IMG/VR virus record: IMGVR_UViG_3300035045_000355
Coordinates: 1 to 22,814 of that record
Length of the DNA stretch: 22,814 nt
DNA from: a virus
Strand: one strand, 5' to 3'
Both the position numbers and the translations under genes were made by a program. Below the pieces are notes generated by a model. It ran no database searches. It saw nothing but the letters and a program-made list of their open reading frames with translations, and was not told the origin of the DNA. Below are positions 1-13,055 of the stretch, one piece after another; positions within the stretch are counted from its first letter, which is position 1; each line of letters opens with the position of its first letter.

Positions 1-3000
1 ACATTTAATAATGCATATCTCAATGCAACCAATCAGAAGTTTGGTGATGCTTGTTTAGGTCTTTCACCTGGAACTGAAGCACATACTTTTGTAAGTGGTG
101 TTGCTGATTCAATCACTGCAGGTGGCGGTGCAACAGGTACGTTTACTGCTGCAACAGGAACTACCTATAATGGACTCACAGGTGATCTAGTAATTGAAAT
201 TGGAAATCACTCTTTAACAACAAGTAACACAGTTCTTATCGCTGATAACAGTATTGGATTTACTTGTGCACAAGATGGTAATACCTCTACCAAAACATAT
301 CCTCGTAGCACTGACCCTGCATCAGGATCTGCTCGTAATATAACCGCAGTTACATCAACTACGATCACAGTTAACGTAGGTGCAGTTCCAATTGATGAAA
401 GTTTTGCAGTCGCGGCCTCTGATGAATTTGGGTTTGGCACTGCAGCGTTTACAATTGAGTGTTGGATTAGACCAATTACTGTTGGTGCAGGAACAAGATC
501 TATCTTTGATTTCAGAACTGCTGCAACTGAAGTTGCTCCTTACTTATATCTTGATGGTGCAAATCTAGAGTATTATGTCAATGGTTTTATAGTAATTCAA
601 GGAACAGCAAACATAGTTGCAAATCAATGGACACACGTTGCTATTAGTAAATCAGGTTCTGTAACTAGAATGTTTGTTAATGGTGTTCAAGACGGTAGTA
701 ATTACAGCGATAGCAATAACTACGGAACAAATAAACCAATTAGAATTGGTGATGATACTGCAGGTAATAATCACTTCATTGGATATATTGATGAGTTTAG
801 AGTTTCTACAACTGGACGTTATACTGCAGCATTTACTGCACCTACAGGTATCTTCCAAGGTGATTCAAACACTGTATTACTCATTCACTTTGATGGTGTT
901 GAAGGACAACAGCATACAGATGATTGGTCTGGAACTGTATCATTTACTAAGGGTGAATATTTCAATAATGATGCAATTCTAGAAACTTCTAGAAAGACTG
1001 GTGCACCTGCAGGATTTGCGGGTAGATCTCACAGATACTACAACGCTGCAGATAATATTGAAGGTAATATCGATTTTATCAAGAAAGAAGTCGTATATCA
1101 GATGAGACAGAGATATCCAGAACTTGTTATTCTAGGAACTCGTTTCACTCCAACTAATGCAACATATGATGCTGTAACTGGTCTATTGTCAATGACAGTG
1201 ACTGGAAACACATTTACTAATGGTGGACAATTTACACCTCAGTCTGCAGCGTATAATCCTTCGACTGGTATATTGACTATCACTAAGATTGGTCACGGTG
1301 TAACAAATGGTAAGAGAATCAATATTAAAGTTGGTGGTATTACATTTACATGTGCTGAAGATAGTAATGCAACAAATCATCCATATCCTCGTAGCACTGA
1401 CCCTGTTGCAGGTAAATGGTTGACAGTTTCTAATGCGACTGCAGATACATTTACAGTTGATGTTGGAACCTCATCTAATACTACAACTCATACTTTCGTA
1501 AGTGCCTTAACTAATGCAATTACTGTTGAGAAAGATAGACTTAAGATTTTAGATAATTCTTTGACATTCACTTGTGCGATGGATGGTAATACTGCTAATA
1601 AAACTTATCCTCGTCCAACAGATCCTGCATCTAAAGATGTTGCTCTTCCAATCGTATCTTCCAGTTCTACCAATTTAACAGTTAATGTAGGACCTTCTCC
1701 TTTAGTTAATTTCCAACCAACTAACGCAACGTACGATCCTGCAACTGGTGCATTCGTCATGACGATTGCTAATCATACAATCAATGTTGGAACACAAATT
1801 AGATTAACTGCAAATTCATTTACATTTACTTGCACACAAGATGGTAACAGTGCACAGAAAACTTATCCTCGTGCAACTGCGGGCGATGGTCAACCTGATC
1901 CTGCATATAATACTGCTCTAGATGTAACTGCAGTCGGAACAACTACACAAAATATTAGTAGTGCAGCGTATGTTCCTACAACAGGTATTTTAACAGTCAA
2001 TACAAGTGGTAACCATGGATTATCTACTGGCAATAGAATTCAAATTGCTGATAATTCATTAACATTCACATGTGCTTATGATAGTAATGCTACAAACCAC
2101 ACATATCCAAGACAGACTGATCCTATCAGAGGTGAGTGGGTTGAAGTAACCGTTGTTGATGCTGATACATTTACTATTGATATTGGAACATCTAGTGATA
2201 CTTCTACACATACATTTGTTTCTGCAACTGCAGGTGCACTAATTAAACAAACTGGAACTGTAACTATTAACGTTGGTGTTTCTGCTCAGGCAGATCAATA
2301 TGCTCATACTTTCGTATCTGCTGCAACAAACGCAGTTGTTACAGGTGGTAATTACTTACATACATTTGTTTCTGCTACAAATAATGCAGTCATTATTGAC
2401 GAAGGAATTAATTGTGAAGATGATATTCGTGATACATTGAATGCGATCATTCAAGATCTTCGTAATGGTTCTAACAATCATGTTTGGGATGCTGCATCTT
2501 ACTATGTTAATAGAACTGTCAATCCAGTTCAGATTGCACAGATTGAACCTGCTGTTAAAGAAACATTATTTGCTTATGAAAAAGTTGATGATATGCTTCA
2601 GTATGTCATTACTAATGCTCTTTGGCCAGTTCAAGGTGATCATGGTTTAACTCAATTTACTGACGTTTCAATTACTGATTCTTCTTACACTACATTGAAT
2701 CAGTTTACACCTACTAATGCAACTTATAATCCTGCTACTGGTGATATGGTATTGACTATTGGAACTCATTCAATGACCACATCATCAATAGTTAATATTG
2801 CAATCGGTGGTATCACATTTACTTGTGACAAAGATGGTAATGATCGTCCTACCGCATATCCAAGAAAAACTGACCCTGCTGCAAAGGCAGTTCTAGCTGT
2901 CACCGCTGTTGTTCCAAACACATCAATTACAGTTAACGTAGGTAAATCATCTGCAAGAGATCAATATAATCATACATTTGTATCTGCAGTAACTAATTCT

Positions 3001-6000
3001 GTTACTGAATTAAATTACACTACTGGTGACTGTGCTGATGTATATTCAACTGTTGGTAACTTAATTAACATCATTACAGATACAATTACAAATGCTTCTG
3101 CATCATCACCTGTTGATCATTTGGCAAGTGTTACTAAAGTTGAACCTGCATATGAGTTCGTTGGTGGAACAGTTGATGGATATCTAGAAACAACTTTAGC
3201 AGTTGATTATCATAATGCAGGAACTGATTTATCATATACAAATCAGATTGGTCCTGATACACAATATCGTTTCAGAGATGCTGCAAACTTAATCAGACTT
3301 AATCGCACAGCAATCGTTGATAAAGCAGCGTACGATATGTTACAACGTTATCCTACGTTGGCACAAACAATGCCTAGAAACCAAGGTGGTGCAAGCACTG
3401 ACGGAACTATTCGTTGTAAGACTGACTTAGGTAATTTCTTAGATGCTATCGCAAATGATTTACAAGAAGGTGGTAATCTTGAAACTATAACAGGAACTGG
3501 ATTCTATCTCTTCCAAAATGGAGGACTACGTTATATTCGTCTTCAAGTATTCCAGTCAGTATATGCTCATGGAAGACTTGCTGAGTATATGAAACAAGCA
3601 GTTTTAGGAACCTTAACTGATGCCAATACTAACAGTATTGTTGTTGGAGATTGGGGAGTTACTGGTGCAGGTGTTTCTGGTTACTTTAATGCTGTTACTT
3701 CTAGAATTGATGAACTCATTGCAACTATTAATAATGTTATTGCTCCAACAGGTTCAGACTTTGAAACTGCTGCTGATAGATTATTCTTTAACAAGCAATT
3801 TATAAAGGAAGAAATTAACGGTCTTGTTCTACAGTATCTTTCATATGTCTTAAACAGTGTCACTTATAATGCAGGTGCTTGGAATGATGAATTAGATGTT
3901 GAAGATTTAATTGTTGCTCTTATTTCTGATTTACAGGCTGGTGGAACAGATAGCACAATCCAAGAAGCAAGCACTTATCTAACTGCTGCTCTTAATATTC
4001 AAACTATTGACAATGTTCTCCCTGCAGCATTATATGCTATTGAACAAGTTGGAATCCTTGGTGAGTATGCGATTGAAAATGGATTATTTGCTCAAGCAGA
4101 AGCTGGAAGTGCAAACAGTTCTACTCAATATGCAGCGCAATATACTGATGAATCAGCATATAGAGATTCTATTTCAACTTCAGCAATCAATGATGTTGTA
4201 TATGCATGGCGAGACTTAATTGAGATTGTTAAGGATATATTCTCACCTGGCGGAAAAGAAGCAAGATCTGCTGCTAAACAATTAGAGTATAATGAAAATT
4301 ATTACACTAATGAATTAAATAACGCAGTTACCAATCAATTTGGATCTGGTGCATGGTCTACTGATCAAGAAAACTTTATAGAAGGTATTGTTGGAGACAT
4401 TGTTCATGATCTTATTACAACTGATACTTACGATAAATCCACAGCATATACAATTACATTAAGTGCAAGTTCGGGTACGTTTGGTGTTGGAGAACTTGTT
4501 ACTTCCAGTAATGGTGGTGAAGCAACTGTTCTTGAATACGACGATGTAAATAAAATCCTTTATGTCGGTGCATTTGGTGGAAGTGCATGGGTGGCAACTA
4601 ATACATTATCTGCTCCTAGCGGTGCTACAGGAACCATTGCATCTGGTGGCGTAAGTTCTGCATACAATTGGTATAATAATCCAACTAACGTTAAGATTAT
4701 TGATAGAGCAAGAAACCTTACATCTAATATTGAAGGACTTGTTTCTACTACAAATATTTTCCCTGATCCTGAGAATCTTAATGCTACAGGTTGGACTGCA
4801 TCAGAAACAACAACTTCAGTAGATGTTACTGCTGCTCCTGATGAAACTCAAACTGCTGATAAGTTAATTGCTTCAACAAATAATACTGAGCACTACAAGT
4901 ATAAGAATTTCACTTTAAATTCCTTTGAGACTTTTGATAGTGATACTACTAAATTTGACTCTACTACTGAAACATTCGATACTGGTTCTGCAGGTGATGC
5001 AACTACTCAAACATTTACATATTCAATCTTTGTTAAGGCAGCTGAGTATACTAAGACTCGTATATACCTAGCACTTGATGACTCTCTTGCAACACGTCAA
5101 AGAGCATTCTTTGATCTTGATTTATCAAATGGAACTAAGGGTTCTATCTTTACACCTGATGTTGCTATAACTGTAGATGCCTTTGGAGTAATTCCTCATG
5201 GTAATGGATGGTATCGTGCTTACATTACAGCAACATTTGGATTTGGATTCTCTCAACTTCGCACACAAGTTTATACTAGAGGTTCTAACGGAGCACTAGT
5301 CCATACAGGTAATGGATCTGATGGAATATTTGTCTGGGGTCATAAACTCAATAGTGGTGCCCTTGATCCTTATACTGCAGCATCTGGTACATTATTCTAT
5401 TCAAACACTGATTATAATATCAAGACATTTGCTTTGGATAATCTTGAAGACTTTATGGGTAAGGCACTTGACAATACTTTAACATCTCCTTCACCTCTTG
5501 CATCTTTCTATAAGTTCTATGATGCTTCTCTTGCATCAGATTACAATAAATCTACTATTCAAAGATTTATTCGTTATCATCTAAATGTTATTAGAAATCA
5601 GTTAGCACAGTCAACTTATTATACAACTATTACTAACAACAATGCGATCACTGTTCCTACAATCAAATATGGTAATCCTGAGGTTCCAATTGGACTTAGT
5701 GGTGGTGTTAAACCTGCTGATTACTTCTATGGTTTACTTAGTGACGCATCAGCCGAAGTTGAAACTGTTACAGAGAATACTGGTGAAGTAGTTCAAGTTT
5801 ATAAGAGATTTAGAATTGACGGTAACATAACTGATGGTCCTTTCACAATGGGTGAAACTGTTACTAAACAGGGTGCAAGTGGTGTTACAGGTGTTGTATA
5901 CGGTTTCTACGAAGATGCAAACTATAAGTATCTTGATGTTCGGGTAACCGCAGGAGTTTGGGCAGTTACTGACAATATTGTAGGTGCAGCAAACTCTACT

Positions 6001-7647
6001 ACTGCTCAAATTAGTGCTATTGAAGATCGTCTTCATATTATCGATCTTCAAGGATTATTTGAAAATGATATCCCATTTAAAGGATATACATCTGGACAGA
6101 CAGCACAACCAACAGGATTCTATCAAAATAATGCAGCGGTTACAGATAACACTGGAGGTACGTTAACAGTTGATACTGCAAGTCTAACTGGAACATTTGA
6201 AACTACTGCAGTGGTATATCCTCAGACCTCTAGGAAGTTTATTGATGTTAAGAAGATTGATGGTTTAGATGTTAAGGTTGGTGATTTAGTCGCTTCCACG
6301 GGTAATGTTCGTCTTGGTATCAATATTCTTAATAACTTAAATGTATTTACCGAAGGTAATAGACTGTATTCAATTGTTGCAGGTCAGCAGCAAACCAATT
6401 ATGTAGTTATTGCTGAGATAGATCTTGCTAATAATTACCTATACGTCATTCCTGTTGGTGGATTTACACCTTCAATTGGTGATGTTCTTGGTGATTATGG
6501 AACAGGGACTGCATTACCTGTTGGACAGGTTCAAGTTACAACTGTTGTTACAAATGCAGGTCAGGGTGCTGCTAGAGTTCAAGATATTGAAAATATTGGT
6601 TTGAATAAGAGATTATATCTCTCTTCTGTTGTTGGTTCATTTACTGACAATGATGGTATTAAAGGTCCTGATAATTATGCTTCAGCGATTCTTAATGTTG
6701 AAGATGTTAAAGCTCGTGTCAAACGTTCCTTCAGAGGATTTGATGGAACACAAACATCATTCAAACTTACTACAGATAATGGAACTCAATATCTACCTGA
6801 CCCTGCAGGACACATGCTCATCTTTGTTAATGGTATCCTACAACCACCTGGTGCAACTAATGCATACACAGCGTTCTCTGATACTATTCAGTTTACTGAA
6901 GCACCTGATTTGGGAGCATCCTTTACAGGATTCTACGTTGGTAAACTAAGACAACTTGATGATATTAGTTTCGAGTTTGATTCATTAAGTCAATCATTTA
7001 ACTTGAAACGTAATGATGTGTTCTATTCATTGACTCTAACTGATGGTGTTCAGTCAAGCACAATTAGACCTGAAAACAATATCATTGTTTCACTGAATGG
7101 TGTGATTCAGGAACCTGGTATTGGTTTTGAGATTGTTGGTTCTAGAATCATCTTTACTGAAGTTCCTAGATTTGGTTCTACATTCGTTGCATTCTCTTAT
7201 GTTGGTTCTGAGGCAGACGTTGATGCTGCTGAGGTTGTTCCTCCAATTGAACCAGGTGACTTTATTGACATTCAAGGTGAGACTGCAGATAGAGAAGTTG
7301 CTGTTATTGAATCATCAAACTCTCTAATTACATTTGATTATCTTGGATCTGTATTCGGACAGAAAGCTGTCGGAACTGCAGCTCTAACAACTGGATTTAT
7401 TAAGAATGTTCAGGTAACTGGTGGTGGTTCAGGATACACTTCCAGACCTACTGTTCGTGTTGATTCTATCTCAGGTTTTGAGGGTAATATCCGTGCACTA
7501 GTTGGTGTTGCGGGTGTTGAACTCAGTGCAACTGGTTCTGGATATCAAAATCCATCAGTTGCAGTTGAGACCACTGTCCCTGATGATTATGTCGCACCTA
7601 ATCTTGCAGATTATGGTGAAGAACTAATTGATCCAGAGATCCTATAA
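1..7647 (+). CDS. Giant mosaic virion structural protein, 5'-truncated by window edge
   Basis: The frame has no stop from base 1 to TAA at 7645-7647, so at least 2548 residues are encoded and the true start lies upstream. The ATG at 670 cannot be the start, because it falls inside a LamG-like domain (nt ~403-870; FTIECWIRP before it, FVNGVQDG and GYIDEFRVS after it). Modules in order: six FTCxxDGN...YPR repeats (nt ~148-390, ~1246-2240, ~2701-3000); alpha-helical modules with a DIxxxLxAIxxDLxxG core (nt ~2400-4430); a jelly-roll/CBM-like domain (~4741-5380; GNGWYRAYITA, FVWGHKL); GETVTxxxSGVTG modules (~5800-6030); two copies of an NGIxQxPG module (~6718-7210); and two GSGY repeats (~7408-7566). 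No catalytic motif, signal peptide or membrane segment is visible. Known: such modules are common in marine phage tail and appendage proteins. Inferred: a baseplate-attached fibre or appendage in the virion. The exact T4 counterpart is unknown. The next gene's late promoter overlaps the stop codon. Confidence 0.85.
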   Translation, partial: TFNNAYLNATNQKFGDACLGLSPGTEAHTFVSGVADSITAGGGATGTFTAATGTTYNGLTGDLVIEIGNHSLTTSNTVLIADNSIGFTCAQDGNTSTKTYPRSTDPASGSARNITAVTSTTITVNVGAVPIDESFAVAASDEFGFGTAAFTIECWIRPITVGAGTRSIFDFRTAATEVAPYLYLDGANLEYYVNGFIVIQGTANIVANQWTHVAISKSGSVTRMFVNGVQDGSNYSDSNNYGTNKPIRIGDDTAGNNHFIGYIDEFRVSTTGRYTAAFTAPTGIFQGDSNTVLLIHFDGVEGQQHTDDWSGTVSFTKGEYFNNDAILETSRKTGAPAGFAGRSHRYYNAADNIEGNIDFIKKEVVYQMRQRYPELVILGTRFTPTNATYDAVTGLLSMTVTGNTFTNGGQFTPQSAAYNPSTGILTITKIGHGVTNGKRINIKVGGITFTCAEDSNATNHPYPRSTDPVAGKWLTVSNATADTFTVDVGTSSNTTTHTFVSALTNAITVEKDRLKILDNSLTFTCAMDGNTANKTYPRPTDPASKDVALPIVSSSSTNLTVNVGPSPLVNFQPTNATYDPATGAFVMTIANHTINVGTQIRLTANSFTFTCTQDGNSAQKTYPRATAGDGQPDPAYNTALDVTAVGTTTQNISSAAYVPTTGILTVNTSGNHGLSTGNRIQIADNSLTFTCAYDSNATNHTYPRQTDPIRGEWVEVTVVDADTFTIDIGTSSDTSTHTFVSATAGALIKQTGTVTINVGVSAQADQYAHTFVSAATNAVVTGGNYLHTFVSATNNAVIIDEGINCEDDIRDTLNAIIQDLRNGSNNHVWDAASYYVNRTVNPVQIAQIEPAVKETLFAYEKVDDMLQYVITNALWPVQGDHGLTQFTDVSITDSSYTTLNQFTPTNATYNPATGDMVLTIGTHSMTTSSIVNIAIGGITFTCDKDGNDRPTAYPRKTDPAAKAVLAVTAVVPNTSITVNVGKSSARDQYNHTFVSAVTNSVTELNYTTGDCADVYSTVGNLINIITDTITNASASSPVDHLASVTKVEPAYEFVGGTVDGYLETTLAVDYHNAGTDLSYTNQIGPDTQYRFRDAANLIRLNRTAIVDKAAYDMLQRYPTLAQTMPRNQGGASTDGTIRCKTDLGNFLDAIANDLQEGGNLETITGTGFYLFQNGGLRYIRLQVFQSVYAHGRLAEYMKQAVLGTLTDANTNSIVVGDWGVTGAGVSGYFNAVTSRIDELIATINNVIAPTGSDFETAADRLFFNKQFIKEEINGLVLQYLSYVLNSVTYNAGAWNDELDVEDLIVALISDLQAGGTDSTIQEASTYLTAALNIQTIDNVLPAALYAIEQVGILGEYAIENGLFAQAEAGSANSSTQYAAQYTDESAYRDSISTSAINDVVYAWRDLIEIVKDIFSPGGKEARSAAKQLEYNENYYTNELNNAVTNQFGSGAWSTDQENFIEGIVGDIVHDLITTDTYDKSTAYTITLSASSGTFGVGELVTSSNGGEATVLEYDDVNKILYVGAFGGSAWVATNTLSAPSGATGTIASGGVSSAYNWYNNPTNVKIIDRARNLTSNIEGLVSTTNIFPDPENLNATGWTASETTTSVDVTAAPDETQTADKLIASTNNTEHYKYKNFTLNSFETFDSDTTKFDSTTETFDTGSAGDATTQTFTYSIFVKAAEYTKTRIYLALDDSLATRQRAFFDLDLSNGTKGSIFTPDVAITVDAFGVIPHGNGWYRAYITATFGFGFSQLRTQVYTRGSNGALVHTGNGSDGIFVWGHKLNSGALDPYTAASGTLFYSNTDYNIKTFALDNLEDFMGKALDNTLTSPSPLASFYKFYDASLASDYNKSTIQRFIRYHLNVIRNQLAQSTYYTTITNNNAITVPTIKYGNPEVPIGLSGGVKPADYFYGLLSDASAEVETVTENTGEVVQVYKRFRIDGNITDGPFTMGETVTKQGASGVTGVVYGFYEDANYKYLDVRVTAGVWAVTDNIVGAANSTTAQISAIEDRLHIIDLQGLFENDIPFKGYTSGQTAQPTGFYQNNAAVTDNTGGTLTVDTASLTGTFETTAVVYPQTSRKFIDVKKIDGLDVKVGDLVASTGNVRLGINILNNLNVFTEGNRLYSIVAGQQQTNYVVIAEIDLANNYLYVIPVGGFTPSIGDVLGDYGTGTALPVGQVQVTTVVTNAGQGAARVQDIENIGLNKRLYLSSVVGSFTDNDGIKGPDNYASAILNVEDVKARVKRSFRGFDGTQTSFKLTTDNGTQYLPDPAGHMLIFVNGILQPPGATNAYTAFSDTIQFTEAPDLGASFTGFYVGKLRQLDDISFEFDSLSQSFNLKRNDVFYSLTLTDGVQSSTIRPENNIIVSLNGVIQEPGIGFEIVGSRIIFTEVPRFGSTFVAFSYVGSEADVDAAEVVPPIEPGDFIDIQGETADREVAVIESSNSLITFDYLGSVFGQKAVGTAALTTGFIKNVQVTGGGSGYTSRPTVRVDSISGFEGNIRALVGVAGVELSATGSGYQNPSVAVETTVPDDYVAPNLADYGEELIDPEIL
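148..390 (+). repeat. FTC/YPR beta repeat, copy 1
   Basis: First of six protein-level repeats in the giant protein. The pattern is hydrophobic strand, DNS-x-x-FTC (Phe codon at 259), AQDGN, KTYPRSTDP, then a TITVNVG strand. An HTFVSG tail of an earlier unit sits at nt ~88-105, so the array continues upstream of the window. Copy 1 is followed directly by the LamG-like domain. Confidence 0.75.
296..319 (+). repeat. 24-bp identical direct repeat, copy A (partner at 1382-1405)
   Basis: The 24 bases ending in cctcgtagcactgaccctg are identical at 296-319 and 1382-1405. Both encode the YPRSTDP part of an FTC repeat. Flanking copies have diverged in codon use, so identity over 24 bases suggests recent duplication or gene conversion between repeats. 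Confidence 0.8.
1246..2400 (+). repeat. Array of four FTC/YPR beta repeats with HTFVSA tails
   Basis: Four copies of the repeat, with FTC cysteine codons at 1351, 1573, 1831 and 2071. Each copy has FTCxxD[GS]N, then a YPR motif and a TxxVxVG or TxDxG strand. Copies at 1345 and 2065 form one subtype (DSNATNH, [GE]W after the DP, ending THTFVSA). Copies at 1567 and 1825 form a second subtype (DGNxxxKTYPR). Two extra HTFVSA tails occur at ~2305 and ~2359 without an FTC core, so these look like partial copies. There is one Cys per full copy. Subtype order suggests duplication of a two-unit block. Confidence 0.8.
1382..1405 (+). repeat. 24-bp identical direct repeat, copy B (partner at 296-319)
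   Basis: Exact match to 296-319 at the same point of the protein repeat (YPRSTDP). It is long enough to serve as a substrate for homologous recombination or slippage within the gene. Confidence 0.8.
2701..3003 (+). repeat. FTC/YPR beta repeat, isolated sixth copy
   Basis: A complete copy separated from the main array by about 100 residues of helical sequence. It has NATYNPATGDMVLTIG, then ITFTC (Cys codon 2824), DKDGN, AYPRKTDP, SITVNVG and an NHTFVSA tail. It lies between two helical segments, so it looks like an insertion into a helical module. Confidence 0.75.
6718..7210 (+). repeat. Tandem duplication of an NGIxQxPG beta module
   Basis: Two adjacent modules of roughly 75-80 residues. 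The first has TSFKLTTDNGTQ, LIFVNGILQPPG, IQFTEAPDLGASFTGFYVG (nt ~6718-6950). The second has YSLTLTDGVQSS, IVSLNGVIQEPG, IIFTEVPRFGSTFVAFSYVG (nt ~6967-7209). Both keep the same order of a [V/L]NG[I/V][L/I]Q-x-PG turn followed by a FTEAP/FTEVP strand. This module is familiar from phage tail fibres. The copies are well diverged at the DNA level. Confidence 0.75.
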
Positions 7648-7670: not shown

Positions 7671-8903
7671 ATGGCTAAACAAGCACTAGGTCTAGGTTCA
7701 GCAGCAAATGATAACTCAGGTGATACCCTGAGAGCTGGTGGTGACAAGATCAATGACAACTTTACTGAAATATACGGTGCCATTGGTAATGGAACTACAC
7801 TGACTGTTAGTGTTACAAACCCTGCTGTTGGTCAGGTTCTTAGATATAACGGAAGTACGTTTTTGCCTTCTGACTATACTCAACTTACTTCAGCATTAGA
7901 TGTAAATGGTAACAATATTGTATCCTCTTCTAACGGTAATATCGTTATTGATCCTAACGGAACTGGCAACGTAACTATTTCTAATGGAAGTGTCACAAAC
8001 ACTTTTAATGGAACTACTGGAATAGTAGACTTTCCTACAAAAATTCAGTATAAGAATGAGTTTACAACTCTTGGTGCTGCTCCTGCTGCAGCAACATATA
8101 CTGGTTATTTCTTTACTGTAGATGGTGATGATAATCCATATGTGAACATTAATATAACAGCAGGTGGAGCGGGCGATGTAAGAGCAAAGGTTGTAACTGA
8201 ATATTCGAGTATTGGATTACTTTCAGATGTTGATATTACTACTGCAGCACCAACCAATAACCAAGTCTTAAAATGGAATGGAACTAAGTTCGTTCCAGCT
8301 GATGATATTCAGGGAACTTCAGGAGGTGCCACTCAAAACCTCTTCGCTACTATCTTTGGTGACAGTGGTAGCACTACAGCGAATACTACAACAGACTCTT
8401 TAACAATTGCAGGTGGAACTAACATCACTACTGCAGTTGTTGGTGACACTTTAACAGTGAACTTCTCTGGAACGTTGACAAGCACTATAGCAGCGTTAAC
8501 TGACACTGATATGTCAGGACTCACTCAAGGTGATTCGTTGTTCTATAATGGAACTAATTGGGTTCCTACTAGATCACCTATCACATGGTGGGAACTTGGT
8601 GCTACTGGTAACGCACAAAACTTTACCTTTAACGGTCCTGGTTTCTCTGCAGCAACAAATGATCCTCAGATCTATGTTCAAAGAGGAGCAACATATGCTT
8701 TTGATAACTCTACTAATGGTGGTGCACATCCATTTAGAATTCAGAGTTCAGCAGGTTTAAGTGGCACTCCATACACCACTGGTCAAAGTGGTAGTGGAAC
8801 TGCAGTCCTTTATTGGACAGTTCCAATGGATGCACCTGGCACACTTTATTATCAATGCACAATCCATTCACAAATGAATGGGACTATCACCGTCGTAAGT
8901 TAA
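7671..8903 (+). CDS. Tail-appendage structural protein with C-terminal cupredoxin-like domain
   Basis: A 410-residue protein in three parts. The N-terminus (residues ~6-39: GSAANDNSGDTLRAGGDKIN, then DNFTEIYGAIG) is a motif known at the start of many marine phage fibre-like proteins. The middle carries three copies of a YNGT-W/F-VP repeat (LRYNGSTFLP, LKWNGTKFVP, FYNGTNWVP). The C-terminal ~105 residues (~304-410) resemble a cupredoxin fold: RGATYAFDNS, GAHPFRIQ, VLYWTVPMDAPGTLYYQC and THSQM-like loop CTIHSQM. His353, Cys396, His399 and Met402 match the type-1 copper ligands with the C-x2-H-x2-M spacing of amicyanin. There is no signal peptide. The start is the ATG 20 bases after the late promoter; the Shine-Dalgarno is weak (gcgag). 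Three bases separate it from the next gene. Inferred: a virion appendage. Copper binding is predicted from the ligands only. Confidence 0.85.
   Translation: MAKQALGLGSAANDNSGDTLRAGGDKINDNFTEIYGAIGNGTTLTVSVTNPAVGQVLRYNGSTFLPSDYTQLTSALDVNGNNIVSSSNGNIVIDPNGTGNVTISNGSVTNTFNGTTGIVDFPTKIQYKNEFTTLGAAPAAATYTGYFFTVDGDDNPYVNINITAGGAGDVRAKVVTEYSSIGLLSDVDITTAAPTNNQVLKWNGTKFVPADDIQGTSGGATQNLFATIFGDSGSTTANTTTDSLTIAGGTNITTAVVGDTLTVNFSGTLTSTIAALTDTDMSGLTQGDSLFYNGTNWVPTRSPITWWELGATGNAQNFTFNGPGFSAATNDPQIYVQRGATYAFDNSTNGGAHPFRIQSSAGLSGTPYTTGQSGSGTAVLYWTVPMDAPGTLYYQCTIHSQMNGTITVVS
8579..8900 (+). other. Cupredoxin-like domain with complete type-1 copper ligand pattern
   Basis: C-terminal domain of the 410-residue protein. 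His353 (codon at 8727) lies at the start of a strand (HPFRI), and Cys396 (8856), His399 and Met402 lie in the closing loop, CTIHSQM. That is the ligand order of plastocyanin/amicyanin, with the amicyanin spacing. The domain ends two residues before the protein's C-terminus. Confidence 0.7.
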
Positions 8904-8906
8904 TAA

Positions 8907-11900
8907 ATGACAAGAACTGTTCCTGGAACTGGTGCTGTAATCGAACCAATATTTGATGAAATATTTGGTGTTCGTGCAGTCAAAGTATTAAATGGAGGAT
9001 CTGGATACGTTCCTAATGATCCCCCACGTCTTACTGTGACTGGTTGCGGAACTCCTGATGAAGCAGCGTTATTATATCCAATCATTGATGCTGATTCTGG
9101 AAGAATCACTCATGTAAGAGTTCTGAATAGAGGAAAGGGGTATGATCCTCTAAGATTACAAATTATTCCTGAGCAGGAAACACCAAACGTCGTTACTTCA
9201 TTTGATGTCAATAGAGTATGGCAAAGTCATCCTAACTCTCCTACAACAGGTACGTTTACATCTGATAGACTTAGATTAGTTAGTGATAATCACCCTAAAC
9301 CAACTCAGCATTTCTTAACTGAGAGACAACCAGGCGGTTCTACAGATGTCGTTGATAGAAGTTTTGATCATACGATAATCTACCGTGGTGGAAAGGATGT
9401 TCCTTATGTTGGTCAAAGAGATTTTCAGAAAAATAAAGCACTTGGCATCATGGCAAATGGTGTCTTACTTCATACTCCAGAATGGGGAACAGCAGCAGGA
9501 ACTCCTACAAACTTCTCTGCTGATACTGTAAAATATGATTATGTAAAAAATACTAATACTTATGATGCTGTGAATGATAGTGGTATCTATTACTATCAAT
9601 CAAGTAAAATTGTAAATGAGTTTGCTCTTGATAATGGTGTATTTGATTGGGGTGATATACAACTCTACACTTGGAATATTAAAGTAGAAGTTGGAAGTAA
9701 TATTGTTGTTGGTGTATCTAACTTAGATGAAACACTTGGTTCTATTGAAGTTGGTAGAATTGTAGATGAAGTCTCAGGAACTGGTAGAGGTGAAATTTCT
9801 AAGATTGTTAGAGATAATCAGAATAATGTTACTAGAGTTTATATTAGAGCATTAACAGGTGATGCTTTCCAAGACAATGATCTTTTATTAGGTTCTAATG
9901 GATTTGAATTTAGAATCAGTGGTGATCCAATATCAATTAATCCTTATTATATTGATTTTGGAACTGATGCAGCAAAGTTCGGTCCTTTCACACCTGGTCA
10001 ATTCTATATTGCTCCCGAAAACATTCAAGTAAGAGCAAATTATCTAATTAAATTTAATCAGTCTGATGCATCTAATCAATTAGGTTCTCTTGGACATCCT
10101 ATAAGATTTAGCACAACTCCTGATGGTACGTTAAATAACGGAACATTATACTATGACAGCACTGGTGTATCTCAAGCACCTGCTGCAGATTATGAAAATC
10201 CTTATGGTGCATTATTCCTAATGAATAGTGATGAACAAACAAGGATTTATTTCCATTGTGCTTATCACAGATATATGGGAGGATATGCAGGTGATGAAGG
10301 TTATATGACCCTCAATACATCTGCAGAAACATACACTCCTACTAACAATTATTATGCTAGGGACTTTTATCAAAGTAATAGCAGTGATCCCAACACTATA
10401 GATAAGTCTAGATATATTGATGGACACTCAAAAATTCTTGGTGTTTCTTTTGATGGTTATCCAATTTACGGACCTTGGGGATATAATTCTAGTGGTGCAG
10501 TAGCAAGAGAAACCTCTTCTTATAGACTTAGAACCACTGCTGAATTAGCGGGTGCTCGTCCTCAGGTAAATACAGTATCAACGGTAACATACGCTGTTAC
10601 CATTTCTAATGGACAGTTCCTTTTTGGAGGTTCTCGTCCAAACTTTTTAGAATTAGATCGCGGTAAAACTTACATTTTCAATCAAAATGATGCATCTAAT
10701 GACAGTCAACACTTACTAATCTCAACTACGGACGATGGATGGCATGGGCAAAATCCTGTTATCATTGGGAATACTGCAAATTTGTATTCTGGCAATGGAA
10801 TTAAATATTATATTGACGGGAGCGAAGTAACCTATCAATCATATTTGTCAGGTTTTAACTTGGCAACATCTCGTGAGGTACGATTTACAGTTCCTGTGAA
10901 TGCACCTACTGCGTTATATTTGTTTGCATATACAACTGCAGGTCATGGAATTAGAACTGTTCAAGAAGGATATGTTCTAGGAGATTTGGTAGAAGATTAT
11001 ATTTACGATTCTTCTGTAGGAACTCTTGATGAATTTAACGGTAAATTTGCTGTAACACCAGAGTATCCTAACGGAACTTATGCATACTTCATGAGTGAAG
11101 ATAGTAGTGGTAATCCTGCATATCCATATGCTGTCGGTCCTAAGTTTTACGGAACACCATTATTTGAAGGAGATACCACACCTCCACAACCAACTGTATT
11201 CCCAACAGATGCAGAAGGTGATGTAGTTCTTGCTGATGATGGCAGTGTTTCTTATATCAAGATGACGAAGAAAGGTGATAATTTCTTCGGACCTGCAAAA
11301 GCAAAAATTCTTGGTGGGCAAGGATCTGGTGCTGTTGGAACTCCTACTGTTCAAACTGTTACTGGTTTAGCACTACTTGATGGTGGTAGAAGTTATGCTA
11401 CTCCTCCAACACTTATTTTTGAAGGTGGTGGTGGACAAGGTGCACAAGGTGCTGCTGAAATTGATACTCTAGGAAAAGTTACATCTATTGCAATTACAAA
11501 TCCAGGTGAATTCTATCAAGAACCTCCATTCATTTTAATCACAGGTGGTGGCGGTATTGGTGCTAAGGCAGAAGCGACCATCGATCAAGGTGTTATAACA
11601 GCAATTAATATTACGGATCCTGGTAATGGATATACTTCAGTTCCAAACGTTATCTTTACAAAATTAGTAACACTTAAGAGAAAATCTAGAGCACGTCAGG
11701 CGTTTAACTCATCAAACATTTATTTAACTGGTCTTGTTAAAAATGTTACGTCGAATGATACAGAAATATATGTTGATTCTACAGATGCATTTCCTGGTTC
11801 TGGTCAAATCATTCTTAATTATGAAACAATCACTTATACCTCTAAATCAGCAGGTAAGTTTGGTGGTCTGACAAGAGGTGTAAACTTTAATTATGATCAA

Positions 11901-13055
11901 CGGGTTATTCTTGACGCAGGTCAAAATGATTCAAATGGTGTTTCAACTTATAAGTTTAATGTTGGTGATAGAGTTATTCGTAAAGTTGAAAATGCTAATA
12001 ACAAAGTTGCAAAAGTATATGACTGGAATCCTGTTACCAGAGAACTTCTAGTTACTTTTGAAGTTGATGAATTAGCATTTATTGACGGTGGTATTCCTTC
12101 TACTGAAGATGCTATCGTACAGTTTGATGCAGGAGTTGCTTCTAGTGCACCTTCTGGATTCCAACCTCATACTGTTCTTACAACTACTGGATCTAATATT
12201 TTCTTATTGACAGATCCCCCTTCTCTTTTGGCAGACAGATCTTTCCAAGATATTCTACCAACAGCAGCAGGTGATGGAATTGCTGACCTAGATAATACTG
12301 GCACTGATTATGCCAATCAAATTAGTCTTGATGGTGGTATCTATAATTCTTTATATGGTATCGAAGAAACTCAAGGTGGAACAAATACAACATTATTCCA
12401 AGTTGGTGATAATGTAAAAGATGGAACTATTCCATTCAAGTATGCAACAATTCTGACTGCAGGTGCTTTGAGTGATGGTGTTGAACACACTGCACTTCTA
12501 ACTATTAAACTTGATGCAGCAAATGGTAATGGTATAAATTATAGCGTTAATGAAGTTGTTACAGGAGCAACTTCTGGAGTGATTGGAACTGTTGTTTCTT
12601 ATGATCCAACAACGACAACAGTAGTTGTAGGTAGCATTGTCCCATTTAATACTGGTAACATCAATGTTGGTATTGGTGGATATCTTTATGAGTTCTCTGA
12701 TAGTGGAACTGTAGTTGATGTTATTATTCAAAATCCTGGCACAAACTATACTGCTGCACCAACAGTAACGTTTGAAAATATTGGTGACATTCAAGCGACT
12801 GGAACTGCTGTTCTCACAGCTGCAGGAGACCAAGTTGCTTCTATTACTATCAATAATGGTGGATATGGTATTCAACAATCTGTTGATAACACATATAACC
12901 TACACCCCACAGTAACATTCACTAATGCAACTGGTGATACCACTGGTGCGGGTGCAGTTGCACAAGCAATTCTAGGAGGTGAGGACCTCGTAGGGAACGG
13001 TGGTGCACGATATAGAATCAAGAGTATTGAATATCAAGCAACTGTTCGCTCGTAA
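8907..13055 (+). CDS. YHYH-domain virion protein with two cupredoxin-like insertions
   Basis: A 1382-residue protein. The N-terminal ~90 residues hold two G-x-GY beta repeats (NGGSGYVPNDPP, NRGKGYDP). An interrupted YHYH domain follows: MANGVLLHTP (182-191) with GIYYYQ (226-231), GVSFDGYPIYGPWG (512-525), and EDYIYDSS...GTLDEFNGKF...TPEYPNGTYAYF...YPYAVGPKFYG (~696-748). Cupredoxin-like module 1 (~385-470) has His397, Cys451, His454, Met457. Module 2 (~575-685) has His602 but no Cys. The C-terminal half has repeated GG-x-GY-x-x-PP units (~775-910 and ~1265-1370), a DxxIYVDST...RGVN module (~950-993) and a VNEVVTGATSGVIGTV module. No catalytic site is evident. YHYH is a known family of unclear function, often in marine phage and bacterial surface proteins. 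The ATG lies three bases after the upstream stop, with no clear Shine-Dalgarno, so it is probably translated from the same late transcript. In T4, gene 7 precedes gene 8, but I see no gp7 similarity. Confidence 0.85.
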   Translation: MTRTVPGTGAVIEPIFDEIFGVRAVKVLNGGSGYVPNDPPRLTVTGCGTPDEAALLYPIIDADSGRITHVRVLNRGKGYDPLRLQIIPEQETPNVVTSFDVNRVWQSHPNSPTTGTFTSDRLRLVSDNHPKPTQHFLTERQPGGSTDVVDRSFDHTIIYRGGKDVPYVGQRDFQKNKALGIMANGVLLHTPEWGTAAGTPTNFSADTVKYDYVKNTNTYDAVNDSGIYYYQSSKIVNEFALDNGVFDWGDIQLYTWNIKVEVGSNIVVGVSNLDETLGSIEVGRIVDEVSGTGRGEISKIVRDNQNNVTRVYIRALTGDAFQDNDLLLGSNGFEFRISGDPISINPYYIDFGTDAAKFGPFTPGQFYIAPENIQVRANYLIKFNQSDASNQLGSLGHPIRFSTTPDGTLNNGTLYYDSTGVSQAPAADYENPYGALFLMNSDEQTRIYFHCAYHRYMGGYAGDEGYMTLNTSAETYTPTNNYYARDFYQSNSSDPNTIDKSRYIDGHSKILGVSFDGYPIYGPWGYNSSGAVARETSSYRLRTTAELAGARPQVNTVSTVTYAVTISNGQFLFGGSRPNFLELDRGKTYIFNQNDASNDSQHLLISTTDDGWHGQNPVIIGNTANLYSGNGIKYYIDGSEVTYQSYLSGFNLATSREVRFTVPVNAPTALYLFAYTTAGHGIRTVQEGYVLGDLVEDYIYDSSVGTLDEFNGKFAVTPEYPNGTYAYFMSEDSSGNPAYPYAVGPKFYGTPLFEGDTTPPQPTVFPTDAEGDVVLADDGSVSYIKMTKKGDNFFGPAKAKILGGQGSGAVGTPTVQTVTGLALLDGGRSYATPPTLIFEGGGGQGAQGAAEIDTLGKVTSIAITNPGEFYQEPPFILITGGGGIGAKAEATIDQGVITAINITDPGNGYTSVPNVIFTKLVTLKRKSRARQAFNSSNIYLTGLVKNVTSNDTEIYVDSTDAFPGSGQIILNYETITYTSKSAGKFGGLTRGVNFNYDQRVILDAGQNDSNGVSTYKFNVGDRVIRKVENANNKVAKVYDWNPVTRELLVTFEVDELAFIDGGIPSTEDAIVQFDAGVASSAPSGFQPHTVLTTTGSNIFLLTDPPSLLADRSFQDILPTAAGDGIADLDNTGTDYANQISLDGGIYNSLYGIEETQGGTNTTLFQVGDNVKDGTIPFKYATILTAGALSDGVEHTALLTIKLDAANGNGINYSVNEVVTGATSGVIGTVVSYDPTTTTVVVGSIVPFNTGNINVGIGGYLYEFSDSGTVVDVIIQNPGTNYTAAPTVTFENIGDIQATGTAVLTAAGDQVASITINNGGYGIQQSVDNTYNLHPTVTFTNATGDTTGAGAVAQAILGGEDLVGNGGARYRIKSIEYQATVRS
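10059..10317 (+). other. Cupredoxin-like module 1 inside the YHYH protein, full ligand set
   Basis: Residues ~385-470. NYLIKFNQSDASNQ leads to GHPIRFSTTPDG (His397, codon 10095), then RIYFHCAYHRYMGG with Cys451 (10257), His454 and Met457. Spacing is C-x2-H-x2-M, as in the neighbouring 410-residue protein. The His-to-Cys gap is 54 residues here versus 43 there. Confidence 0.65.
10630..10965 (+). other. Cupredoxin-like module 2, degenerate (no Cys ligand)
   Basis: Residues ~575-685. RGKTYIFNQNDASND and QHLLISTTDDG (His602) match module 1 strand for strand, and REVRFTVPVNAPTALYLF matches the strand before the ligand loop. The loop reads AYTTAGHG instead of C-x2-H-x2-M: Ala674 is in the Cys place and Thr677 in the His place. 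A type-1 copper site is therefore not possible. The module sits between the second and third parts of the YHYH domain. Confidence 0.55.

Follow-up and report, generated by a model that had tools for sequence, protein, structure and literature searches.

A predicted cupredoxin domain with a conserved, probable type-1-like copper site at the C-terminus of the gp9 baseplate protein of marine cyanophages

Why does a protein that connects tail fibres to the baseplate of a marine phage end in a domain with one cysteine, two histidines and a methionine arranged like the ligands of a copper protein? The question arises from a stretch of 22,814 bases (the window) that is almost identical to the block of baseplate genes in two T4-like Kyanoviridae, Prochlorococcus phage P-RSM4 and Cyanophage S-TIM4, and judging from its sequence the virus is a marine T4-like cyanophage of the Kyanoviridae. 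Gene order in the P-RSM4 annotation is giant structural gene, gp9, a 1380-aa protein, gp8 and VrlC. The gene considered here (7671..8903, + strand) encodes a 410-aa baseplate wedge tail-fibre connector: its product is 99.8% identical to P-RSM4 gp9 and S-TIM4 gp9, falls into PHROG 677 over its full length (residues 1-409, E 4.7e-191) and carries the Pfam domain T4_gp9_10_N at residues 3-105 (33.8 bits against a cut-off of 25), with T4 gp9 structures matched by residues 3-111. The sequence-only reading had placed the motif in a phage virion protein, and by homology this baseplate protein is indeed gp9.

The T4 and cyanophage proteins share a gene name, a homologous N-terminal domain and a position in the same baseplate block, whereas the C-terminal domain of T4 gp9 is a different beta-sandwich. 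In T4-like phages outside the marine set the match is confined to about residues 1-67, so the C-terminal part is taken to be lineage-specific and fibre-facing. Because its N-terminal part is homologous to that of T4 gp9, we infer both the placement of the protein at the fibre socket and its trimeric state. The virion proteome of the cyanophage S-SM1 comprises 41 proteins (PMC3037559), and experimental evolution of S-PM2d gave early mutations in baseplate and fibre genes, with no mention of gp9 (PMC9910659). A PADLOC search returned no link to defence systems. Upstream, the large structural ORF at window positions 1-7647 contains several repeats of a module whose pattern is FTC-x2-D-x-N...YPR-x-TDP...HTFVSA.

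The domain itself comprises the last 108 residues of gp9 (303-410; 8577..8900, + strand), and AlphaFold2, Foldseek, VIA-align and profile matches support it as a cupredoxin. The span initially proposed for it, 8579-8900, holds at its end, and its start lies two bases out of frame, the best start being 8577 (residue 303). Within the ORF at 7671-8903 we located the codons of the four residues, all on the + strand, in the order originally proposed and with the C-x2-H-x2-M spacing of amicyanin: H353 (8727..8729), the proposed N-terminal His ligand, within an HPF motif; C396 (8856..8858), the proposed thiolate ligand and sole Cys of gp9; H399 (8865..8867), the proposed C-terminal His ligand; and M402 (8874..8876), the proposed axial ligand. 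Each is invariant in an alignment of 94 sequences, H353 falling on the plastocyanin ligand His and the other three on the Cys, His and Met of plastocyanin and amicyanin. The composition of the protein also speaks against chance: its 410 residues include a single Cys and just two His, and each of these is a proposed ligand. Any C..H..M arrangement turned up in just 1 of 20,000 shuffles of the gp9 protein, and across the eight genes of the window such motifs occur twice only, once in gp9 and once in a domain related to it that the following gene encodes.

The predicted fold points in the same direction as the motif. An AlphaFold2 model of residues 303-410, built with 94 natural relatives, reached a pLDDT of 96.7 and a pTM of 0.88, and all 14 Foldseek matches in the PDB at E<=1e-3 were cupredoxins or multicopper oxidases (three-domain nitrite reductase, rusticyanin, pseudoazurin, a multicopper oxidase and amicyanin). 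VIA-align placed the Hyphomicrobium NirK N-terminal domain first (Z 10.8, with an rmsd of 2.1 A over 92 residues), and rusticyanin scored Z 9.8. Fold prediction and comparison with solved cupredoxins had been suggested as a check of the cupredoxin-like C-terminal domain; the model came out as a cupredoxin, and the alternative, a fold other than a Greek key, was not seen. As modelled, the domain is a Greek-key beta-sandwich belonging to the cupredoxin fold superfamily. His353 sits just before a strand, Cys396 at the end of the penultimate strand, and His399 and Met402 in a short loop ahead of the last strand, positions that in this model fit the standard cupredoxin arrangement.

A relationship to copper proteins is also detectable in sequence, provided that the whole family is used. 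Searched as a single sequence, gp9 matches no curated cupredoxin family model at cut-off, and phmmer against the PDB gives weak matches, the best being NirK at 0.0023; this best match, 2vmj, is a NirK engineered with the short copper loop CTPHPFM. The profile of the 94-sequence family detects plastocyanin (E 4.7e-6), amicyanin (6.2e-6), NirK (7.6e-6) and rusticyanin (4e-5), with matches overall ranging from 5e-6 to 7e-5, so that a profile-detectable sequence relationship to the cupredoxin superfamily is indicated. When aligned with plastocyanin, H353, C396, H399 and M402 fall on all four copper ligands. With amicyanin the Cys, the second His and the Met coincide, but the first His lies two residues away from its counterpart; we read this offset as an error of the alignment in a loop. 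In the plastocyanin alignment the ordered His, Cys, His and Met match the known ligands of a type-1 copper protein, and the earlier assignment of these residues to a type-1 ligand set gains from this alignment and from their near-absolute retention across divergent relatives.

As for the kind of cupredoxin, the label "amicyanin-type" proved accurate for the loop spacing and too specific for the family. The domain scores 16.7 bits on the amicyanin equivalog TIGR02657, far under its cut-off of 110.2, and amicyanin family membership was rejected on this score; its closest folds are other cupredoxins. Nor does it reach the gathering cut-off of Pfam PF00127 Copper-bind (13.8 bits against 21.2). Of 50 phage domains, 34 have a plant domain, PF25489 (At5g54830-like), as their best relative in Pfam, with the window copy under its cut-off.

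Among known systems, the NirK N-terminal domain (three-domain enzymes; 2dv6, 6tfo) and rusticyanin resemble the gp9 domain in fold and size and give the best structural scores; they differ in being redox proteins outside the cytoplasm, with no virion context and about 17-24% identity. Plastocyanin shares all four ligands and amicyanin the C-x2-H-x2-M spacing, but the gp9 domain falls below the cut-offs of both families and has HPF at its first His, a residue usually followed by Asn (HN) in plastocyanin and amicyanin. H-P-F at the first His, together with a fold match, is instead common to the T1 domain of laccases (multicopper oxidases). In the laccase motif HPFHLHG the later His residues serve the trinuclear centre, and in gp9 (HPFRIQ) they are R and Q, so a lone type-1-like site would be expected, with no oxidase activity. 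HPFHLHG is described as a copper motif of laccases (PMC5855693).

How the relatives were collected matters for how the conservation of the ligands is read. In a divergent set of 94 sequences (29-94% identity) the only invariant columns are H353, Y394, C396, H399 and M402, an invariance that is partly ascertained given that part of the relatives was fetched with patterns containing ligand residues. For this reason the profile was rebuilt with the ligand columns masked, and the HCHM set was then found in 215 of 223 unique copies. The eight others consist of six ligand-poor domains of the neighbouring protein and two dead copies in which several ligands were lost together, reading FAVM in S-B05 and TSSA in L226. 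Copies that did not themselves bring in their locus retain HCHM in 52/52 gp9 proteins and in 9/10 divergent extra copies, and a first IMG/VR scan using patterns that avoid all four ligands returned 80 relatives, all 80 with H, C, H and M. The masked profile, the unselected copies and the ligand-free scan together counter ascertainment by ligand-containing patterns as the source of the conservation. Loss of Cys, His or Met in most homologues, named beforehand as a possible disproof, is contradicted by these counts. Among close gp9 relatives 41 of the 108 domain positions are invariant, so conservation at that distance is weak evidence by itself; the codons of H353, C396 and H399 in relatives use both synonymous forms (TGC and TGT for Cys). 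A motif arising by chance was ruled out by the shuffles, the invariance in the divergent set, the ligand-masked profile and the unselected copies. In the S-B05 relative (2947-3270) the three strongest ligands are lost at once, replaced by F, A and V, and the Met is kept.

The gene downstream offers both a second candidate site and an internal comparison. It encodes a 1382-aa baseplate wedge subunit (8907..13055, + strand; PHROG 708) with two domains of interest, A and B, and a YHYH region (Pfam YHYH, E 5.2e-16); for phage-tail YHYH domains a zinc site has been predicted (PMC7824862). Domain A (10002..10331, + strand; H397, C451, H454, M457) carries an H…C-x2-H-x2-M site with H/C/H in 114/114 relatives and M in 113/114, and a profile-profile comparison (E 6.2e-6, probability 85%) sets each of its proposed ligands against the corresponding one of the gp9 domain. 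It has no listed VIA-align match, and the profile of the region gave no convincing relative in the PDB. The model of this region of the neighbouring protein is modest (pLDDT 68), confident in the domain B part, and domain B fills the fold search; domain A is therefore called cupredoxin-like on the basis of the profile match and ligand conservation. Domain B (residues 551-689; 10557..10973, + strand; model pLDDT mostly 83-96) is a third predicted cupredoxin-fold domain, with VIA-align Z 7.4 to auracyanin A and a two-domain laccase, a middling score in a match list made up entirely of cupredoxin-fold proteins. Its ligand positions are unconserved in the window phage and in most relatives, with C-x2-H-x2-M intact in the relatives from S-RIM14 and S-SSM4. 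Domain B retains its predicted fold without ligands, a natural internal control indicating that the cupredoxin fold alone does not need them.

From this evidence, combining predicted fold, aligned ligands and their retention, we consider it probable that the gp9 domain binds copper in a type-1-like manner. The main rival would have the site take another metal (zinc or iron) or none, the four residues being kept for the folding of a beta-sandwich fibre socket. Virion assembly in a copper-poor cytoplasm speaks for it, as does the ligand-free cupredoxin fold next door, which suggests that the scaffold can work free of metal. Yet ligands that were not needed ought to have changed over time, like those of domain B, whereas those of gp9 are near invariant; where losses do occur, as in S-B05 and L226, they hit several ligands together; and Cys-His2-Met in a cupredoxin fold is the classic copper set. 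We accordingly regard this rival as unlikely, while giving it more weight than any other.

The wider reading, which we favour with less assurance than copper binding as such, is that gp9 ends in a cupredoxin with an intact type-1-like site that serves as a copper-stabilised head, for docking or adhesion, where the tail fibres attach. By analogy with T4, where the N-terminal part docks to the baseplate and the C-terminal part holds the long fibre, gp9 would be a trimeric socket joining tail fibres to baseplate, and the cyanophage protein would have kept the N-terminal part and placed a cupredoxin at the fibre-facing end. It would be made in the apo form in the host cytoplasm and would take up copper after assembly or lysis, the bound metal then pinning the two sheets and the ligand loop into a rigid, long-lived docking or adhesion head. 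Copper as the metal, the time of loading, the trimer geometry and the docking or adhesion role are what we infer, and against this reading stands the scarcity of copper in the bacterial cytoplasm, the site of virion assembly.

Copper could alternatively act as a lure, the loaded domain being displayed so that outer-membrane metal-uptake proteins of the host grip the tail. T4 gp37 likewise has metal ligands in a host-contacting phage protein (iron held by HxH motifs), although its iron is octahedral, His-only and set in a trimeric fibre, whereas the gp9 site is predicted to be mononuclear, Cys-His2-Met and contained within one domain. The lure would be the Trojan-horse idea for phage tails with copper in place of iron, metal in phage tail fibres having already been argued for iron (PMC11705849). 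Homology puts the site in a part of the virion that faces the host, and tail fibres as well as lectin, peptidase and YHYH proteins carry related domains. Copper in a type-1 site, however, is firmly bound and mostly hidden from the surface, a state better fitted to storage or electron transfer than to display; a receptor is not known, and the second copy is found in a baseplate wedge protein and not at a fibre tip. We give the lure little credence.

Comparably improbable is a redox switch, in which proximity to a photosynthetic cell would change the oxidation state or metal occupancy of the site and thereby govern when the fibres are deployed. Redox activity is a property of type-1 sites, and some cyanophages have been recorded to adsorb in a light-dependent manner (Jia et al. 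2010, cited in the review PMC9229316), but such adsorption can be explained otherwise, no electron partner is known and the domain is also present in phages not assigned to cyanobacteria. That the domain derives from a captured electron carrier and acts in auxiliary metabolism, as would the plastocyanin (petE) that cyanophages carry as a photosynthesis gene (PMC3037559), is scarcely credible for a domain fused to a baseplate protein within a structural gene block and distant from plastocyanin itself (profile E 4.7e-6).

A search of a collection of open-access journal papers found no report joining a cupredoxin with a phage baseplate or virion. Cupredoxins as such are well known; what appears new, provisionally, is one with a kept predicted copper site as part of a virion. 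Should copper be held there, a metalloprotein would be part of the infection apparatus of one of the most abundant virus groups of the ocean. T4 carries about 18 copies of gp9 per virion, and by the same stoichiometry there would be some 18 copper sites per particle, in addition to those of the neighbouring protein. The reading, if true, would give a handle on how the tails of cyanophages, about whose fibres little is understood, dock these fibres and survive in seawater, and would tie phage biology to trace-metal chemistry in a way that is measurable by ICP-MS on purified phage. It would also explain the C-terminal part of a gene annotated merely as a connector in hundreds of genomes.

How far does the module extend beyond this phage? 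The earlier suggestion that marine phages may already have such sequences on record as structural proteins was borne out by hundreds of records, most of them named "baseplate wedge tail fiber connector"; we saw none annotated as a copper protein. A tblastn search with the gp9 domain alone returned 356 phage records, nearly all from marine cyanophages, and the domain is present as well in phages with no cyanobacterial assignment. Predicted viral structures (BFVD) place it in gp9, in the proximal long tail fibres of P-SSM2 and S-SCSM1, in S8 peptidase proteins and in lectin or YHYH proteins, and one environmental phage locus (IMGVR_UViG_3300048034_000143, 1484-2830) contains four HCHM-domain copies in tandem. 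This spread over gp9, fibres, peptidase, lectin and YHYH proteins and tandem copies marks the domain as a module in general use among the tail and fibre proteins of marine phages, and no peculiarity of this genome. We may go further and speculate, with low expectation that it holds, that marine cyanophages and other marine phages with the module in their fibres are copper-containing particles, their fibre socket being dependent on copper, adsorption being controlled by copper or redox state, and the virus pool as a whole acting as a copper ligand of surface seawater.

The domain is found, too, on contigs binned as Planctomycetota, Rickettsiales, Gammaproteobacteria, Bacteroidetes and one Prochlorococcus single cell, which may be phage contigs. 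In BFVD, "beta-sandwich proteins" of Pithovirus and Marseillevirus also match the gp9 cupredoxin fold.
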